Shown here piece after piece: positions 30,565 through 37,458 of a stretch of DNA of 64,000 nucleotides. The notes below the pieces were generated by a model that saw only the letters and a list, made by a program, of their open reading frames with translations, ran no database searches and was not told the origin of the DNA. Both the position numbers and the translations under genes were made by a program. How positions within the stretch are numbered: position 1 is the stretch's first letter; every line of letters starts with the position of its first letter. Source of the stretch: Pedobacter sp. KBW06 (GTDB lineage: Bacteria > Bacteroidota > Bacteroidia > Sphingobacteriales > Sphingobacteriaceae); contig NZ_QAJL01000003.1 in the NCBI RefSeq assembly GCF_003852525.1, positions 613,343 through 677,342 of the forward strand. The letters are read 5' to 3'.

Positions 30565-31671
30565 TTACTTTGCTTCAAGCAGGTAAAAACCACCTTCAGT
30601 GACGATTGTTTCTCCCGGTTTAAGCCCGGACGTGATCATCATTTCCCCCTGATCAACAGCGGCTGTTTCGACTTTCCGGCGCACAAATTTCCCCGGAGCA
30701 GTCTGCAGGAACACAAAACTGTTATCGTTCATCTGGAAAACAGACGAAACAGGCACCGCAGCCGTATTTTGAGGACTATCCTTGAAACTGACTGTTACGT
30801 ACATCCCCGGTTTAAGGGCATAATCCTTATTTTCACATTCGATCAGCACCTTCACGCTCCTTGTCTCTTCGTCGATTAAATCTTCGACACGATAGACCCT
30901 GCCCTTGATTTTGCGTCCCGGATAAGCCGCTACCGCGATCGTCGTTTCGTCGCCCTGATGTATAAAGCGGATGTCCTTTTCTTTCACCTGTCCGGCAATC
31001 CAGACTTTGTTCAGTTCTGCGATTTTTGCATGAGGAGCCTCGTCGCTTTTCAGGTAATGTCCCGTCACCAGGTCATTTTGAATGACCTCTCCTTTGATGG
31101 GAGAACGAATGATCAATGGCTGTCCCAGAACCAGTTTATCCGGGTCAGTCTGGTAGATCCTGAGGGCAGCCCTAACATTTTCATACTCCTTTAAAATCAG
31201 CTCATAAGAAGCTTCTGCCTCTTCCAGATCTTTAACTGAACCCACTTCATTTTTTTTGAGGTCCCGCTGACGTTTTAAATTCAACAATGCCTTCTTTAAT
31301 TCGGACTTTGCAGCGAAATAATTCTTCTGGGTTTCTATAAATTCAGCGGATACCATTTCAAAAAGCGGAGTTCCGGGATCGACCTTCATTCCAAGTTTCA
31401 GAAACACTTTGACCACCCTTCCGGAGAACGGTGCTGCGATGTCTGCAAAGAAGTTTGGAATGGCCTTTACTGTTCCTGCACTACTGAGTGTCATACGGTA
31501 GGCAGTTTCTGCAACCGTATCCAGTTTTAGTTTATGCTGCAGGTTTGAGTTCGCTGCGATGAGCACCGTATCGCCTGAGAGCTGATAATTTACAGCTTGT
31601 TCTTTGTCTTTTTTTTGGGCACAGGAAGCCATGAGCAGTAAGAAACTGCCGGTCAGTAAAATCTGTTTCAT
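30565..31671 (-). CDS. RND periplasmic adaptor lipoprotein (CzcB-like)
   Basis: 368 residues. The start MKQILLTGSFLLLMASC is a lipoprotein signal. A beta-barrel/lipoyl arrangement (IAAPFSGRVVKVFLKLGMKV ... IIRSPIKGEVIQNDLVTGHY) surrounds a helical hairpin (about 105-165), and the C-terminal part has KPGMYVTVSF and GLKPGETIVTEGGFYL. It links the RND pump to the outer-membrane channel. No His-rich N-terminal metal domain is present. First gene of the efflux operon, 117 bases after mgtA ends; a separate promoter is possible. Confidence 0.93.
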   Translation of the reverse strand: MKQILLTGSFLLLMASCAQKKDKEQAVNYQLSGDTVLIAANSNLQHKLKLDTVAETAYRMTLSSAGTVKAIPNFFADIAAPFSGRVVKVFLKLGMKVDPGTPLFEMVSAEFIETQKNYFAAKSELKKALLNLKRQRDLKKNEVGSVKDLEEAEASYELILKEYENVRAALRIYQTDPDKLVLGQPLIIRSPIKGEVIQNDLVTGHYLKSDEAPHAKIAELNKVWIAGQVKEKDIRFIHQGDETTIAVAAYPGRKIKGRVYRVEDLIDEETRSVKVLIECENKDYALKPGMYVTVSFKDSPQNTAAVPVSSVFQMNDNSFVFLQTAPGKFVRRKVETAAVDQGEMMITSGLKPGETIVTEGGFYLLEAK

Positions 31672-31788: not shown

Positions 31789-34473
31789 TTACAGCCATTG
31801 ACTAAACTTTTTAATGAACAAAGATTTCACATATTGAGTTAGCAAACAATAGCCAGTCAGGATGCCGATGAGCCATGGAAAATAGGTAAGCGGCAAGGCT
31901 TGGAGCTTCAATATTCCGGCAAAAGGACTAAAAGGAATTGCGATTCCGACCAGCATAATTAAGGTCGTTAATGCGACTACCGGAGTTGTTGCCCAGCTTT
32001 GAATAAAAGGAATTTTCCTGGTCCGGATCATGTGCACAATCAGCGTTTGCGACAACAGTCCTTCCACAAACCAGCCGGTCTGGAACAGCGTCTGGTGTTC
32101 CGGGGCATTGGCTTTAAAAACAAAGAACAGCACTGCAAATGTGGCATAGTCGAAGATGGAGCTGATCGGCCCGATATACATCATAAACCGGCTGATCCCC
32201 GCTGCATCCCATTTTTGAGGTTTTTCTAGAAAGTCTTCATCCATTCTGTCCCAGGGGATAGAAATCTGTGAGATGTCATACAGCAGGTTCTGAATTAACA
32301 GGTGGATTGGCAACATGGGTAAAAAGGGAAGAAATGCACTGGCCCCCAGCATACTGAACATGTTTCCAAAATTGCTGCTGGCAGTCATTTTGATGTATTT
32401 GATGATGTTTCCAAAGGTTCTGCGCCCATAGATCACCCCTTTACGGAGTACCATCAGGTCCTTTTCCAGCAAAATGATATCGGCACTTTCCTTGGCAATA
32501 TCCACAGCCGTATCGACTGAAATGCCCACATCTGCATCTCTTAGCGCAGCAGCATCATTGATCCCATCCCCCATAAAGCCAACGGTATGACCTTTCAACT
32601 GCAGCAATTTCACAATTCTTGATTTCTGAATGGGGCTGAGCTTGGCAAAAATACTGGTCTCCGCAAGCCGGGCAGAAAGTTCCTCATCACTCATCTGTTC
32701 CAGTTCATTGCCCAGTAAGACCTGCTGAAAGGGAATTCCTACATCCCTGCAGATTTTCCTCGTTACAATATCATTATCACCGGTCAGGACTTTTACGCTG
32801 ACGCCCAGTTTCTGTAACCCTTCAATTGCAGGTTTAGCAGAGGGCTTTGCAGGATCAAGAAAGCCGATAAACCCGGTTAGGATCATCTTTTGCTCATCCC
32901 CTACCGTATAGTTCGCCGGGCGTCCTTCATGTTCCTTTATCGCAACCAGCAGTACCCTCAGTCCATCTGCATTGAGTTTACGGGAAATGCGGAGCACAGT
33001 ATTCCTCATGGTTTCATCCATAGGAACAATGCCATCTTTTTCGATGTGAAGCCGGCGGTCTTCTCCCGGATCGAAAGCATGCGAACAGAGGTCCAGCATT
33101 TCTTCCACCGCTCCTTTACAGATCAGCAGCTGTTTTCCGTTTTTCTGTTCCAGGATCACGCTCATACGTCTCCGCTGAAAGTCAAACGGAATCTCGTCCA
33201 CCTTCACATAATCCTCTTCCACCTTCAGGTAGTCATGAAGCTCTACATGCTCCAAAACAGCCAGATCAAGCAGGTTTTTCAATCCGGTTTGATGGAAACT
33301 ATTGAAATAGGCCCATTTCAGTACCTCATCATCTTCTTCACCAAATACGTTCAAGTGCCTTTCCAGGATGATCTTATCCATCGTCAGCGTTCCTGTTTTA
33401 TCCGTACAGAGCACATCCATCGCCCCGATATTCTGAATGGCATTCAGCCGTTTCACAATAACTTTGCGTTTGCTCATGTTCTTGGCCCCTTTGGCCAGAT
33501 TTGCCGTCACAATCATAGGCAGCATTTCCGGGGTGAGGCCTACAGCAACAGCAATTCCAAACAATAGGGCCTCAAACCAGTCGCCCTTGGTTAATCCGTT
33601 CAGGAGAAAAATAAGCGGCACCATCACCAGCATAAATCGGATCAGCAGCCAGCTCACTTTGTTGACCCCTTTATCAAAGCTTGTTTCCGCACGTTTTCCG
33701 GTAATTGCTTTTCCGATAGAACCGAAATAGGTCAGATTGCCGGTTGTCACGACGATAGCCGTTGCCGTTCCACTCAGCACATTGGTTCCCATAAAGCAGA
33801 TGTTATCCAATTCCAAAGGAGATTTATGATCGGCATCCGGGATCAGTTCCCCGTTCTTTTCCAGAGGAAGAGATTCCCCGGTCAGCATCGCCTGACTCAC
33901 AAAAAGGTCTTTTGACGTGATGATGCGGATATCCGCCGGGATCATATCCCCTGCACTTAAAAAGATCACATCTCCCGGAACGATATTTTTGATATCGATC
34001 TCCTTCCTGCCCCCTATTTTACGGAGTACATTGACCGTGGTTTTCACCATACTTTTCAATTGTTCTGCCGCGCGGTTACTGCTGTATTCCTGCCAGAAAC
34101 GCAATAATGAACTTAGCACCACCATCAGGCCTACCACTATCACCGTTTTATAATCCCGCTCAGGCGTTTTAACCAACCATACATCCATTATAAATGAAAT
34201 GACAGCCAAGATCATCAACACGGCAATAAAAGGGTTTAGAAAGGCTTGAAATAACTGAACATACCAGGCCGGTGCTTTTTCATGCTGAATTTCATTTAAT
34301 CCAAACATTTTTCTCTTTTCTGCAATCTGGGATGGTCCCAGTCCTTCTTTATTGCTGCTCAGCATGGCATAAAAGAAGTCCTGGTCTCCCCTTGAAGCAT
34401 TTCTCAATTTGGTTACTGCTACATCATCGAAGCCTGAGACCGCTTTCTGATGGTTCGTTTTTAGTGTTTTCAT
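31789..34473 (-). CDS. mgtA: Magnesium-translocating P-type ATPase
   Basis: 894 residues of the P3-type ATPase family. Visible are the actuator motif SQAMLTGESLPLEK, the phosphorylation site CTDKTGTLTMD (about residue 356), the ATP-binding FDFQRRRMSVIL, and the hinge MGDGINDAAALRDADVGIS. Ten membrane segments are expected. It imports Mg2+ into the cytoplasm at ATP cost when Mg2+ is scarce. The ATG overlaps the stop of mgtC by four bases, so translation is coupled. Confidence 0.96.
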   Translation of the reverse strand: MKTLKTNHQKAVSGFDDVAVTKLRNASRGDQDFFYAMLSSNKEGLGPSQIAEKRKMFGLNEIQHEKAPAWYVQLFQAFLNPFIAVLMILAVISFIMDVWLVKTPERDYKTVIVVGLMVVLSSLLRFWQEYSSNRAAEQLKSMVKTTVNVLRKIGGRKEIDIKNIVPGDVIFLSAGDMIPADIRIITSKDLFVSQAMLTGESLPLEKNGELIPDADHKSPLELDNICFMGTNVLSGTATAIVVTTGNLTYFGSIGKAITGKRAETSFDKGVNKVSWLLIRFMLVMVPLIFLLNGLTKGDWFEALLFGIAVAVGLTPEMLPMIVTANLAKGAKNMSKRKVIVKRLNAIQNIGAMDVLCTDKTGTLTMDKIILERHLNVFGEEDDEVLKWAYFNSFHQTGLKNLLDLAVLEHVELHDYLKVEEDYVKVDEIPFDFQRRRMSVILEQKNGKQLLICKGAVEEMLDLCSHAFDPGEDRRLHIEKDGIVPMDETMRNTVLRISRKLNADGLRVLLVAIKEHEGRPANYTVGDEQKMILTGFIGFLDPAKPSAKPAIEGLQKLGVSVKVLTGDNDIVTRKICRDVGIPFQQVLLGNELEQMSDEELSARLAETSIFAKLSPIQKSRIVKLLQLKGHTVGFMGDGINDAAALRDADVGISVDTAVDIAKESADIILLEKDLMVLRKGVIYGRRTFGNIIKYIKMTASSNFGNMFSMLGASAFLPFLPMLPIHLLIQNLLYDISQISIPWDRMDEDFLEKPQKWDAAGISRFMMYIGPISSIFDYATFAVLFFVFKANAPEHQTLFQTGWFVEGLLSQTLIVHMIRTRKIPFIQSWATTPVVALTTLIMLVGIAIPFSPFAGILKLQALPLTYFPWLIGILTGYCLLTQYVKSLFIKKFSQWL

Positions 34474-35180
34474 AACTCTGATTGTTGTCCTGTTAATTCC
34501 CAGCTCACCCTCATCACCTCGCTCTCGATCGTCAGCCTGCTCACCATTTTCTCCATCAGCTCGTCCTGATTGCCGGCCGCAATGATCTCAGCAGTGATGA
34601 TCGCATTTGCGGGATCTCCATTATCGCTGCTGGTCAATGCCCTCAGCATTAATTTATCATGGTTCCCCAGGTGTTGCAGCAAGAGGACACGAATGTGATT
34701 TTCTACCGTTTCTTTGCACTTGATTGAGATCAGGTATTCCGTATCCGACGATTCGCTTTTATGAAAAATGGAGATTTTACCCAGCTTCAGACCCAACGGG
34801 CGTAACATCAGATGTGCCATCACGATAAAAGCGGCACCGATGGCTGCTTCCGAAATAAAGCCCATTCCACACAATGCGCCGATTGCTGCAGAACACCAGA
34901 GTGTAGCCGCGGTATTGAGTCCGCGGACATTTGTCCCATCTTTCATGATGACACCGGCACCCAGAAACCCGATGCCGCTAACGATATAAGAAGCAACCCG
35001 GCCACTGGCATCGCCTCCGATTTTTACGGCAAGCGTAATGAAGATTGCAGCACCCAGAGACACCAGCGTATTGGTCCGTAAACCTGCGATACGCTGACGC
35101 CATTGGCGTTCTATGCCGATTCCGGCGCCCAAAGTAAGCGCCAGTAAAAGGCGCGTTGTGAAGTCTAATGTAGTTAACAT
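34470..35180 (-). CDS. mgtC: MgtC/SapB family membrane protein
   Basis: 236 residues. Four to five N-terminal helices contain GAGIGIERQWRQRIAGLRT, VSLGAAIFI, YIVSGIGFLGAGVIMKDG and NTAATLWCSAAIGALCGMG, all hallmarks of MgtC/SapB. The C-terminal ~90 residues form an ACT-like cytoplasmic domain (EYLISIKCKETVENHIRVLL). In other bacteria MgtC helps survival at low Mg2+ and modulates F-type ATPase. It is the first gene of the mgtC-mgtA pair; its 207-base upstream region has RR-box-like repeats, a promoter box, a leader ORF and a hairpin. Confidence 0.95.
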   Translation of the reverse strand: MLTTLDFTTRLLLALTLGAGIGIERQWRQRIAGLRTNTLVSLGAAIFITLAVKIGGDASGRVASYIVSGIGFLGAGVIMKDGTNVRGLNTAATLWCSAAIGALCGMGFISEAAIGAAFIVMAHLMLRPLGLKLGKISIFHKSESSDTEYLISIKCKETVENHIRVLLLQHLGNHDKLMLRALTSSDNGDPANAIITAEIIAAGNQDELMEKMVSRLTIESEVMRVSWELTGQQSEL

Positions 35181-35188
35181 GGCTTTTG

Positions 35189-35217
35189 TTGTTGCCCCAA
35201 CTCAGGGACAGCAACAA
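35189..35217 (-). promoter_or_regulatory. Hairpin directly in front of the mgtC start
   Basis: TTGTTGC (35189-35195) pairs with GCAACAA (35211-35217), and CCC with GGG inside, with a 3-base bulge and 6-base loop. On the minus strand it begins 4 bases after the leader ORF stop and ends 8 bases before the mgtC ATG, covering the likely ribosome-binding region. Leader-ORF translation would disturb it. Confidence 0.55.
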
Positions 35218-35221
35218 AGCA

Positions 35222-35278
35222 CTATTCTGAGGAGGGAAGGTGAAAAAATAATGGCTTATGACACGGAGGCTTATCCAT
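35222..35278 (-). CDS. Proline-containing 18-residue leader ORF of mgtC
   Basis: An ATG at 35278, about 20 bases after the predicted transcript start, opens an 18-codon ORF reading MDKPPCHKPLFFHLPSSE and ending TAG 41 bases before mgtC. It has four prolines, including a CCT-CCG pair at codons 4-5. In enterobacteria, the mgtA and mgtC leaders encode short Pro-rich peptides (MgtL, MgtP) whose slowed translation changes downstream expression. The match here is of position and composition, not sequence. Coding is inferred, not proven. Confidence 0.5.
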   Translation of the reverse strand: MDKPPCHKPLFFHLPSSE

Positions 35279-35302: not shown

Positions 35303-35310
35303 CAAAAGTA
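35303..35310 (-). promoter_or_regulatory. -7 promoter box of mgtC
   Basis: On the minus strand TACTTTTG matches TAnnTTTG exactly. No TTTG -33 box is present at the standard distance, as expected of an activator-dependent promoter. The predicted start lies near 35298. Confidence 0.6.
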
Positions 35311-35324: not shown

Positions 35325-35331
35325 GGATCGC

Positions 35332-35375
35332 CGTTAGGGGACCATTAGAAAGACATTAGAAAGTCATTAGAAAAG
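35332..35375 (-). promoter_or_regulatory. Four 11-bp direct repeats: candidate OmpR-type response-regulator boxes
   Basis: On the plus strand CATTAGAAAGA (35343-35353), CATTAGAAAGT (35354-35364) and CATTAGAAAAG (35365-35375) follow each other with no gap; a degenerate copy CGTTAGGGGAC lies at 35332-35342. On the minus strand the core is CTAATG every 11 bases. OmpR/PhoP-family regulators bind such one-turn-spaced half-sites as head-to-tail dimers. The array ends about 22-33 bases upstream of the mgtC -7 box and 13 bases after the sensor kinase stop. Confidence 0.7.
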
Positions 35376-35387
35376 GGCAGGATTTTA

Positions 35388-36755
35388 CTAAACGTGGTTT
35401 AGGATCAGGATAAAAGTAGTTCCTTCATGCTCTTTGGAGGTCAGCAGAATTTCTCCGTTATGGAGGTCAACAATCTTTTTGGTCAGGGCAAGGCCGATGC
35501 CATTCCCTTCCGCATACTCTTTGTTATTCCCTCTGTAAAAGGGTTTAAAGAGGTTTTGTATGTCTTTTTCGGCAATACCGATCCCCTGGTCCGAAAAACG
35601 CAGGATCGTTTTTTCTTTGTAGTAGGAAATAGAGACCACAGATTCCTGGTTTTCAGAAAACTTGCAATTGTTCTCCATCAGGTTGATAAAGGCAAGCTTT
35701 AACAGGTGCTCATTCCCCTGAATCGAGATAAAATCATCGTCTTCCGCTTCCTGATCAAAGATGATGTTCACCTGGTATCCCGCCTGGTTGTGCATCACTT
35801 CCGTTCTTGCATCCAGCAGCACTTCATCCAGACGGATTTCCTTAAAGCTGATCTCTGCCTGGTCATAGCTCGCATTCGCCAGATTCAGCAAACTTGTACT
35901 TAAGCGGGCCAGTTTACGGGCATCCGTTAAGGCCAGTTCAATCGCTTTTTGGTATTCAACTGTACTTCGTTCTTTATTCTGAGAGATTTCCAGTTCTGCA
36001 ATTACGGTGGCCAATGGTGTTCTCAGTTCATGAGAGATATGGGAGACAAATTCTTTCTGGGCATCAAAGGAGTTCTCAATTCTGTCGAGCATCCGGTTAA
36101 AGGTGATGGCCAGCTCTCCGACTTCGTCTTTACTGTTCTCAACTTTGAGCCTCAGGTCAAGGTTTTTAGCCGTAATCTCCTCCACTTCATCGACCATGTC
36201 CGCTACGGGCTTCAGGGCATGTTTGGCAAAAAAGTAGCCCGCAAAAACCGTTAGAACGATGCTTCCAATCGCCGATAAAATCAGGATAAAACGAAGGTTC
36301 CCCAGCTTTATCAACCCATATTCGTCTTTTGCAGCAGCAGTGATGACATAATCCGCTCCTTTATACCGATATAAAAAACCGACTGCCTGAAGTTCTCCCT
36401 GGTTAAACTGAATCTCTCCCTTGCTGACAATCTCGGCAATCATCGCCCTGGTTTCTTTGATCTTGTCAATATTTACCGCATCATGGTACAACAGCTGAAA
36501 ATCTGTATCATAAACCGCCACTTCCTCCTGGAACAAAGAGCCCGGAGAATTTTTATAGATCGTTTGTAAAACACCCGGCTCTACTTTAGCGTCCAGCAAA
36601 AGATTGGTTTTAGTAACCGCCAGTTGTCTCAGGCGCTTATAGTATTCCTCCTCCCTGTTCTCTGCCGAGGAGAAATAGATAAAAAAGGCAAATCCGGAGA
36701 TGATCACCGCAAAAAGCAGGGTAAATAAAAGGCTGAGTTTGTAGCGGATTTTCAA
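35388..36755 (-). CDS. Two-component sensor histidine kinase
   Basis: 455 residues. Membrane helix at about 7-28, a periplasmic sensor region of about 125 residues, a second helix (about 155-172), HAMP, then HisKA with SHISHELRTPLATVIAELEI (His near 240) and a HATPase domain ending with FSDQGIGIAEKD and GNGIGLALTKKI. The periplasmic region has no recognised fold but has several acidic stretches, which could bind cations. It lies 19 bases downstream of its response regulator gene and directly upstream of mgtC, so Mg2+ or envelope sensing is a reasonable guess. Confidence 0.94.
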   Translation of the reverse strand: MKIRYKLSLLFTLLFAVIISGFAFFIYFSSAENREEEYYKRLRQLAVTKTNLLLDAKVEPGVLQTIYKNSPGSLFQEEVAVYDTDFQLLYHDAVNIDKIKETRAMIAEIVSKGEIQFNQGELQAVGFLYRYKGADYVITAAAKDEYGLIKLGNLRFILILSAIGSIVLTVFAGYFFAKHALKPVADMVDEVEEITAKNLDLRLKVENSKDEVGELAITFNRMLDRIENSFDAQKEFVSHISHELRTPLATVIAELEISQNKERSTVEYQKAIELALTDARKLARLSTSLLNLANASYDQAEISFKEIRLDEVLLDARTEVMHNQAGYQVNIIFDQEAEDDDFISIQGNEHLLKLAFINLMENNCKFSENQESVVSISYYKEKTILRFSDQGIGIAEKDIQNLFKPFYRGNNKEYAEGNGIGLALTKKIVDLHNGEILLTSKEHEGTTFILILNHV

Positions 36756-36774: not shown

Positions 36775-37458
36775 TCAGCTTTCTTTGAAAATAAAGCCCA
36801 TTCCGGTTTTGGTATGAATTAGTTTATGATCAAAGTTCTTATCAATTTTCTTTCTAAGATAGTTCATATAAACGTCTATGAAATTGGTTCCCGTATCAAA
36901 ATGGGTATCCCATACTTTGTCTGCGATCTCTGCGCGTGTCAGAATCCGCTCTTTATTCCGCAACATGTACTCCAGGAGCTTAAATTCTTTAGGAGTAAGG
37001 CTGATTTCCATTCCCATCCTGCTCACCACGTTGGTTTGCAGGTTCATTTCCAGGTCTGCATATTTTAATACCTTCGCTACCGGAGCATGTGAAGTACTTA
37101 AGGAACGGTTCAGCAGGGCTTTTATCCTTGCGTGAAGCTCCCGAAAGTCGAAAGGTTTCACCAGATAGTCATCTGCACCAGCATCAAAACCATCAATCTT
37201 GTCATCTGTAGTACCGAGGGCAGTGAGCATGATGACCGGAATTTCCGGCCAGATCATTCTGATTTCTTTACACAGCTCAATTCCATTCATCCGGGGAAGT
37301 ACAATATCCGTAATGATCAGATCGTAACGGTTGGAGGTCATTAATTTCTTTCCCATCAATCCATCGTAAGCCAGTGTAACCAGGTAGCCCTGCTCCTCCA
37401 GCCCTCTTTTAACGAGTTCTGAAACACGAAGATCATCTTCAACTAATAACAGCTCCAT
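36775..37458 (-). CDS. OmpR-family response regulator
   Basis: 227 residues. The receiver domain has the acidic pair EDD at 7-9, the phosphorylated Asp at 51 (IITDIVLPRMNG), Thr in MLTALG and Lys in DDYLVKPFDF. The DNA-binding winged helix (about 130-225) has SLTPKEFKLLEYMLRN and YMNYLRKKIDKNF. This class binds tandem direct repeats spaced by one helical turn, as found upstream of mgtC 1.4 kb downstream. Cognate kinase follows immediately. Confidence 0.95.
   Translation of the reverse strand: MELLLVEDDLRVSELVKRGLEEQGYLVTLAYDGLMGKKLMTSNRYDLIITDIVLPRMNGIELCKEIRMIWPEIPVIMLTALGTTDDKIDGFDAGADDYLVKPFDFRELHARIKALLNRSLSTSHAPVAKVLKYADLEMNLQTNVVSRMGMEISLTPKEFKLLEYMLRNKERILTRAEIADKVWDTHFDTGTNFIDVYMNYLRKKIDKNFDHKLIHTKTGMGFIFKES

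Follow-up and report, generated by a model that had tools for sequence, protein, structure and literature searches.

Enterobacteria are known to possess leader peptides that use the ribosome to sense Mg2+. In Salmonella, the mgtB start lies in a stem-loop from which the 8-amino-acid MgtQ (Asp2, Pro4, Glu5) frees it, and the acidic codons of MgtQ are required (PMC8092293); in E. coli MgtL drops ribosomes at the sequence EPDP when Mg2+ is low (PMC11282234). In the literature searched we found no description of such leaders in Bacteroidota, an absence that is no proof of novelty. Bacteroidota rarely use Shine-Dalgarno signals.

We analyzed a 64,000-nucleotide (nt) stretch of the genome of Pedobacter sp. 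KBW06 (contig NZ_QAJL01000003.1, positions 613,343 to 677,342; hereafter the window) in which a short open reading frame (ORF) precedes mgtC, the first gene of a Mg2+-transport operon. This ORF probably belongs to a family of leaders, present across several Bacteroidota families and defined by the peptide start M-D-x-[G/P]-P, that would act as Mg2+-responsive translation attenuators. The kind of leader peptide is already known; the leader family, the phylum and the five-codon core appear to be new.

A leader ORF recurs upstream of mgtC

The leader ORF comprises 18 codons, read from position 35278 to 35222 on the minus strand, and its stop lies 41 nt before the mgtC ATG at 35180; the plus strand of 35222-35278 holds no such ORF. 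A preliminary description of the locus had placed the ORF correctly, without giving its strand, and had missed both the start-codon hairpin and the wider distribution of the leader described below. The downstream gene is a genuine mgtC, its product matching the Pfam families MgtC (128.5 bits) and MgtC_SapB_C. No Rfam covariance model matched the window at its gathering threshold, and the segment 35150-35450 gave only a chance snoRNA match (E-value 0.43).

Among the 60 mgtC orthologs examined in Sphingobacteriaceae, 35 have a leader ORF at the equivalent place: 26 of 28 in Pedobacter, 5 of 5 in a second genus and 4 of 27 in a third, so that the two other genera jointly contribute 9 of 32 fetched orthologs. 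The peptides start with MDKPPC in the window's clade and with MDSGP, MDAGP or MDTGP elsewhere, and their length ranges from 12 to 27 codons. A broken frame in close relatives, which the preliminary description had considered, was met once: in locus L023 the ORF is shortened to 12 codons, and its first five codons are intact. As short ORFs are common, and L023 has a shortened one, the leader might be a chance ORF in a transcript leader. That it occupies the same place in 35 mgtC loci and also precedes Mg genes in other families, with the frame and the residues of codons 1-5 conserved across relatives, makes this scarcely credible. Judged from sequence, the ORF is instead likely to be the translated leader peptide of the Mg2+-transport operon. 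The sequence at the start of the leader is rich in A.

Most orthologs of the third genus keep the promoter repeats and have a short 5' untranslated region (UTR) with neither leader nor hairpin, which argues that leader and hairpin form one optional cassette. In L170, L175-L180, L182 and L184-L187, mgtC orthologs follow the same promoter repeats with a UTR of 20-30 nt, no leader or hairpin and, in most, GGAGG before the start; such loci represent gain or loss of the whole leader-hairpin cassette. The mgtC ortholog at L174 (positions 433-660) combines the repeats with a long 5' UTR; this UTR lacks an MDxGP ORF and possibly carries a different leader device.

Selection acts on the first five codons

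Codon-level comparison, proposed in the preliminary description as a check on the ORF, separates the start of the peptide from the remainder. Among ten equally long leaders of the window's clade (clade 1), all changes in codons 2-5 are synonymous (proportion of nonsynonymous differences, pN, 0; of synonymous differences, pS, 0.25), codons 6-18 are near neutral (pN/pS 0.94) and shifted reading frames give a ratio of about 1. Across the 35 mgtC-derived loci, D2 is invariant (35/35) and P5 is present in 34, L057 having Leu. At codons 2, 4 and 5 of these loci the third positions vary and the first and second positions are fixed, the exceptions being the single Leu and the alternation of G and P at codon 4; the loci were recognised by a loose pattern for codons 1-5, which slightly biases the third-position count. 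The constraint on codons 2-5, set against the almost neutral drift of all of codons 6-18 including the later prolines, indicates that the target of selection is the first five residues, M-D-x-[G/P]-P, rather than all 18 residues or the prolines further on. An acidic residue and a proline within the first five codons are thus conserved at the amino-acid level, and the EPDP motif is absent from every leader locus.

The preliminary description had stressed the position, length and prolines of the ORF and likened it to the enterobacterial MgtL/MgtP leaders. On a reading of this kind the leader would sense charged tRNA-Pro or slow proline decoding, as proposed for enterobacterial MgtP. The near-universal P5 and the Pro-Pro of the window's clade would suit such a sensor. 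However, only one proline codon is universal, the search for several conserved ones yielding codon 5 plus codon 4 in one clade, and a proline sensor has no need of the invariant D2; we regard this explanation as very improbable. D2 together with P5 fits N-terminal ribosome destabilisation or pausing better, in the manner of EPDP in MgtL and of Asp2 and Glu5 in MgtQ.

The conserved ATGGAYNNNSSNCC could also be an RNA or DNA element (an initiation signal, a protein site or a self-hairpin) that is not read as peptide. Nucleotide identity is high inside clades, and TCCGTG can pair with ATGGA in the window's clade. This self-hairpin is, however, not retained in other clades, early leader-to-hairpin pairing is at chance, synonymous changes occur at D2, G4 and P5 in several families, and serine is coded by TCA/TCT as well as by AGT/AGC, all of which renders such an element quite improbable.

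A hairpin covers the downstream start codon

In the window, the leader is followed by a hairpin, and 2 nt separate its 3' arm from the mgtC ATG (Table 1). At the compared loci the start codon of the following gene likewise adjoins or falls within the 3' arm; this gene is mgtC or mgtA or, in part of the second clade, a small ORF preceding mgtC. For the 61 nt up to the hidden start, the mean folding z over 43 loci is -3.3, compared with -0.31 for 44 long ORFs of the window taken as controls. In the second-clade alignment (15 sequences) 95.7% of cells pair, with a covariation score of 0.287 versus 0.151 +/- 0.017 for shuffled and at most 0.082 for slid alignments, and compensatory changes occur in the hairpin arms among relatives. 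In the MAFFT alignment of the window's own clade the arms are moved by insertions and deletions, and five pairs are predicted, one of them with double changes; covariation is claimed for the second-clade alignment and the individual folds, not for this one. Despite the variable length of the leader, 33 of the 43 loci have the hidden ATG at a distance of 93-103 nt from the leader ATG.

Additional elements accompany the hairpin at some loci. In L030, L031, L033-L038, L051, L052 and L055-L057 the small ORF (e.g. MFNFSKTQTKYTRYIVDYDYPVGMDTRPTITFGVADNIF..) lies between the leader hairpin and mgtC, and its own start codon is the hidden one. In L104-L106, L108 and L124, which belong to the family whose mgtA is preceded by MDSGP, the leader hairpin is followed by another conserved stem (AAGATG..CATCTT).

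A leader followed by such a hairpin could work by plain translational coupling, in which the leader serves only to load ribosomes, these melt the hairpin on finishing the ORF, and the peptide itself has no role. This would agree with the near-neutral codons 6-18 and with the position of the hairpin in most clade-1 loci, where it begins at or a few nt from the leader stop. Coupling does not account, however, for purifying selection that spares the third positions of codons 2-5, or for the recurrence of MDx[G/P]P before different genes in unrelated families, and in L023, L038, L051 and L056 the stop is found well ahead of the hairpin. We therefore consider coupling alone unlikely.

Related leaders precede other Mg2+-transport genes

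We searched with a pattern blind to gene content, a -7 box followed by ATGGAYNNNGGNCC. In Pedobacter the scan returned four leaders, in four genomes, directly before mgtA without mgtC, each with hairpin and repeats. In 395 genomes of the class it returned ~25 sites, 11 of which precede Mg-transport genes, with L107 counted by matching sequence only. Of these 11, six lie upstream of mgtA and belong to one family (MDSGP, MDGGP), four are found in another family upstream of a gene for a PRC-MgtE_N-CBS protein (MDEGP), and one, in a third, overlaps mgtE. The Poisson expectation is ~0.006 such sites, assuming six Mg genes with 300 nt upstream of each and ignoring relatedness, although genomes within one family are not independent. 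The downstream proteins were verified as MgtE, MgtE_N + CBS and E1-E2 ATPase. At L158, the single locus examined further downstream, the gene behind PRC-MgtE_N-CBS encodes an NRAMP-like transporter that matches EleNRMT (7QIA) at 1e-106 versus 1e-20 for MntH; EleNRMT is a Mg2+ transporter (PMC8806188). Scans restricted to families recovered the same loci and one extra site in the MDEGP family, L169. A further family has an upstream ORF, MDAGPSYTFELNN.., before mgtA without a recognisable promoter.

The mgtE case (L097/L159) is an upstream MDEGP ORF of 29 codons that overlaps the mgtE start out of frame. It is tentative because no MDxGP leader was found before the 30 best mgtE genes of the class and no MDEGP leader at five other mgtE loci from the family of L097. 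QMDCGP-type hits (L074, L075, L077, L078 and others) were set aside, as their sequence, judged without a family search, looks like the starts of C39 peptidases. At L117, in another family and about -260 upstream of mgtA, a possible variant leader without the proline, MEADSRLRLFIRMV*, follows a -7 box and is itself followed by an inverted repeat.

Promoter, repeats and neighbouring genes

The -7 box TAnnTTTG is present in every compared leader locus, and its usual spacing would place the transcript start about 14-21 nt upstream of the leader ATG in most loci. In the window the predicted start lies ~17 nt upstream of the leader ATG, in line with the 20 or so bases first suggested. Each of the 39 Sphingobacteriaceae leader loci has at least three copies of a phased repeat, which in almost all of them start at -61, -50, -39 and -28 from the -7 box. 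Because the promoter is conserved and the repeats recur at fixed spacing from the -7 box, the leader ORF is almost certainly transcribed; the invariant promoter spacing contradicts a transcript that starts downstream of 35278.

Phased repeats of this kind are typical of sites for the OmpR/PhoB family. The adjacent OmpR-type regulator is likely the natural candidate for binding the predicted site, and the repeats at 35330-35372 could be used to define its regulon. Across the family the repeats keep their fixed spacing even at loci without a leader. In the operon, mgtC and the Mg2+ P-type ATPase gene that follows it share 4 nt. On the same strand, about 120 nt past the end of mgtA, 30565-31671 encodes the periplasmic adaptor of a CzcB/CusB-like metal efflux system, which may belong to the same regulated region as mgtA.

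Table 1. Features of the mgtC leader locus in the window
Feature	Position	Strand	Remarks
Leader ORF MDKPPCHKPLFFHLPSSE*	35222..35278	minus	conserved core codons 1-5: MDKPP here, MD[S/A/T/E/G]GP elsewhere
Start-sequestering hairpin GCTTTGTTGCTGTCCC-TGAGTT-GGGGCAACAACAAAAGC	35183..35220	minus	E -21.5, z -3.2
Bacteroidota -7 box TACTTTTG (TAnnTTTG)	35303..35310	minus	mgtC operon promoter
Four direct repeats TTCTAATG/TTCTAATG/TTCTAATG/CCCTAACG	35330..35372	minus	11-bp period; predicted OmpR/PhoB-type response-regulator site
mgtC (MgtC/SapB family)	34470..35180	minus	first gene after leader
mgtA/mgtB-type Mg2+ P-type ATPase	31789..34473	minus	TIGR01524, 1306.5 bits; same operon as mgtC
Sensor histidine kinase	35388..36755	minus	directly upstream; candidate partner of repeats, from adjacency
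OmpR-family response regulator	36775..37458	minus	candidate activator, from adjacency

A proposed Mg2+-responsive attenuator

We read the locus as a Mg2+ attenuator because the type of peptide start, the MgtQ-like lock downstream and the class of gene all match the enterobacterial leaders. Its mode of action most likely resembles that of Salmonella MgtQ and of MgtL. The two-component system would switch on transcription, and ribosomes would load on the leader, where the N-terminal acidic/Gly-Pro motif would cause pausing or drop-off depending on Mg2+. Whether or not a ribosome clears the leader would then decide whether the hairpin closes over the start codon, and transporter synthesis would follow cytosolic Mg2+. 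We think that low Mg2+ turning expression on is the expected direction.

Several observations weigh against this proposal. As a destabilising motif, one D with one P or GP is weaker than EPDP. Pairing of the leader with either hairpin arm, which a stem that prevents sequestering would need, is at chance overall (38 loci versus shuffles, mean z ~0), so that a consistent switch of stems of the MgtQ type was not found; a competing fold is optimal only in L024, L025, L027 and L028 of clade 1. The leader stop ranges from well before the hairpin to inside it, and a terminating ribosome therefore cannot open the hairpin uniformly at all loci. Finally, 23 of the 27 third-genus orthologs lack the leader, most of them with promoter repeats, which makes the device dispensable.

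The chances are about even that the wider attenuator proposal holds, in which an independently evolved, widespread five-codon (MDx[G/P]P) nascent-peptide sensor of Mg2+, combined with a start-codon hairpin, precedes Mg-transport genes of at least three unrelated kinds, and destabilisation of the ribosome at early codons is a recurrent means of sensing Mg2+. If true, an unrelated second set of leaders in Bacteroidota would represent convergent use of the ribosome as a Mg2+ gauge, a minimal five-codon motif would be available for in vitro testing, and a regulatory rule would be gained for Mg-uptake genes in a large phylum in which little translational attenuation has been described.

Comparison with known leader peptides

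The analogy to enterobacterial leaders drawn in the preliminary description holds for the place and the start of the peptide; it is not supported for the 18-codon length, which varies among the loci, or for the prolines as a whole. The Gly-Pro or Pro-Pro step at a conserved site recalls SecM/RAPP-type arrest peptides. Their arrest involves a long nascent chain within the exit tunnel, whereas in the Bacteroidota leader only four residues come before the Pro. Like MgtM and MgtP in the 5' leader of Salmonella mgtCBRU (PMC8092293), it is a short ORF that opens an mgtC operon, with a two-component system as the probable control of transcription; it has no conserved proline run. With MgtL it has in common the position as leader of a Mg2+ P-type ATPase and an acidic residue and a proline within the first five codons; it differs in having one conserved acidic residue only, and its visible device is a start-codon hairpin, whereas MgtL acts on Rho-dependent transcription termination. 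MgtQ sits between mgtC and mgtB and has a Shine-Dalgarno site and an experimentally tested alternative stem-loop, whereas the Bacteroidota leader, with the motif MDx[G/P]P, heads the transcript and showed no consistent alternative stem; the two have no sequence relation beyond the short motif. Both are very small ORFs that have Asp as second codon and a Pro soon after, and both share a Mg-transporter start hidden in a stem-loop and an mgtC-mgtB operon.
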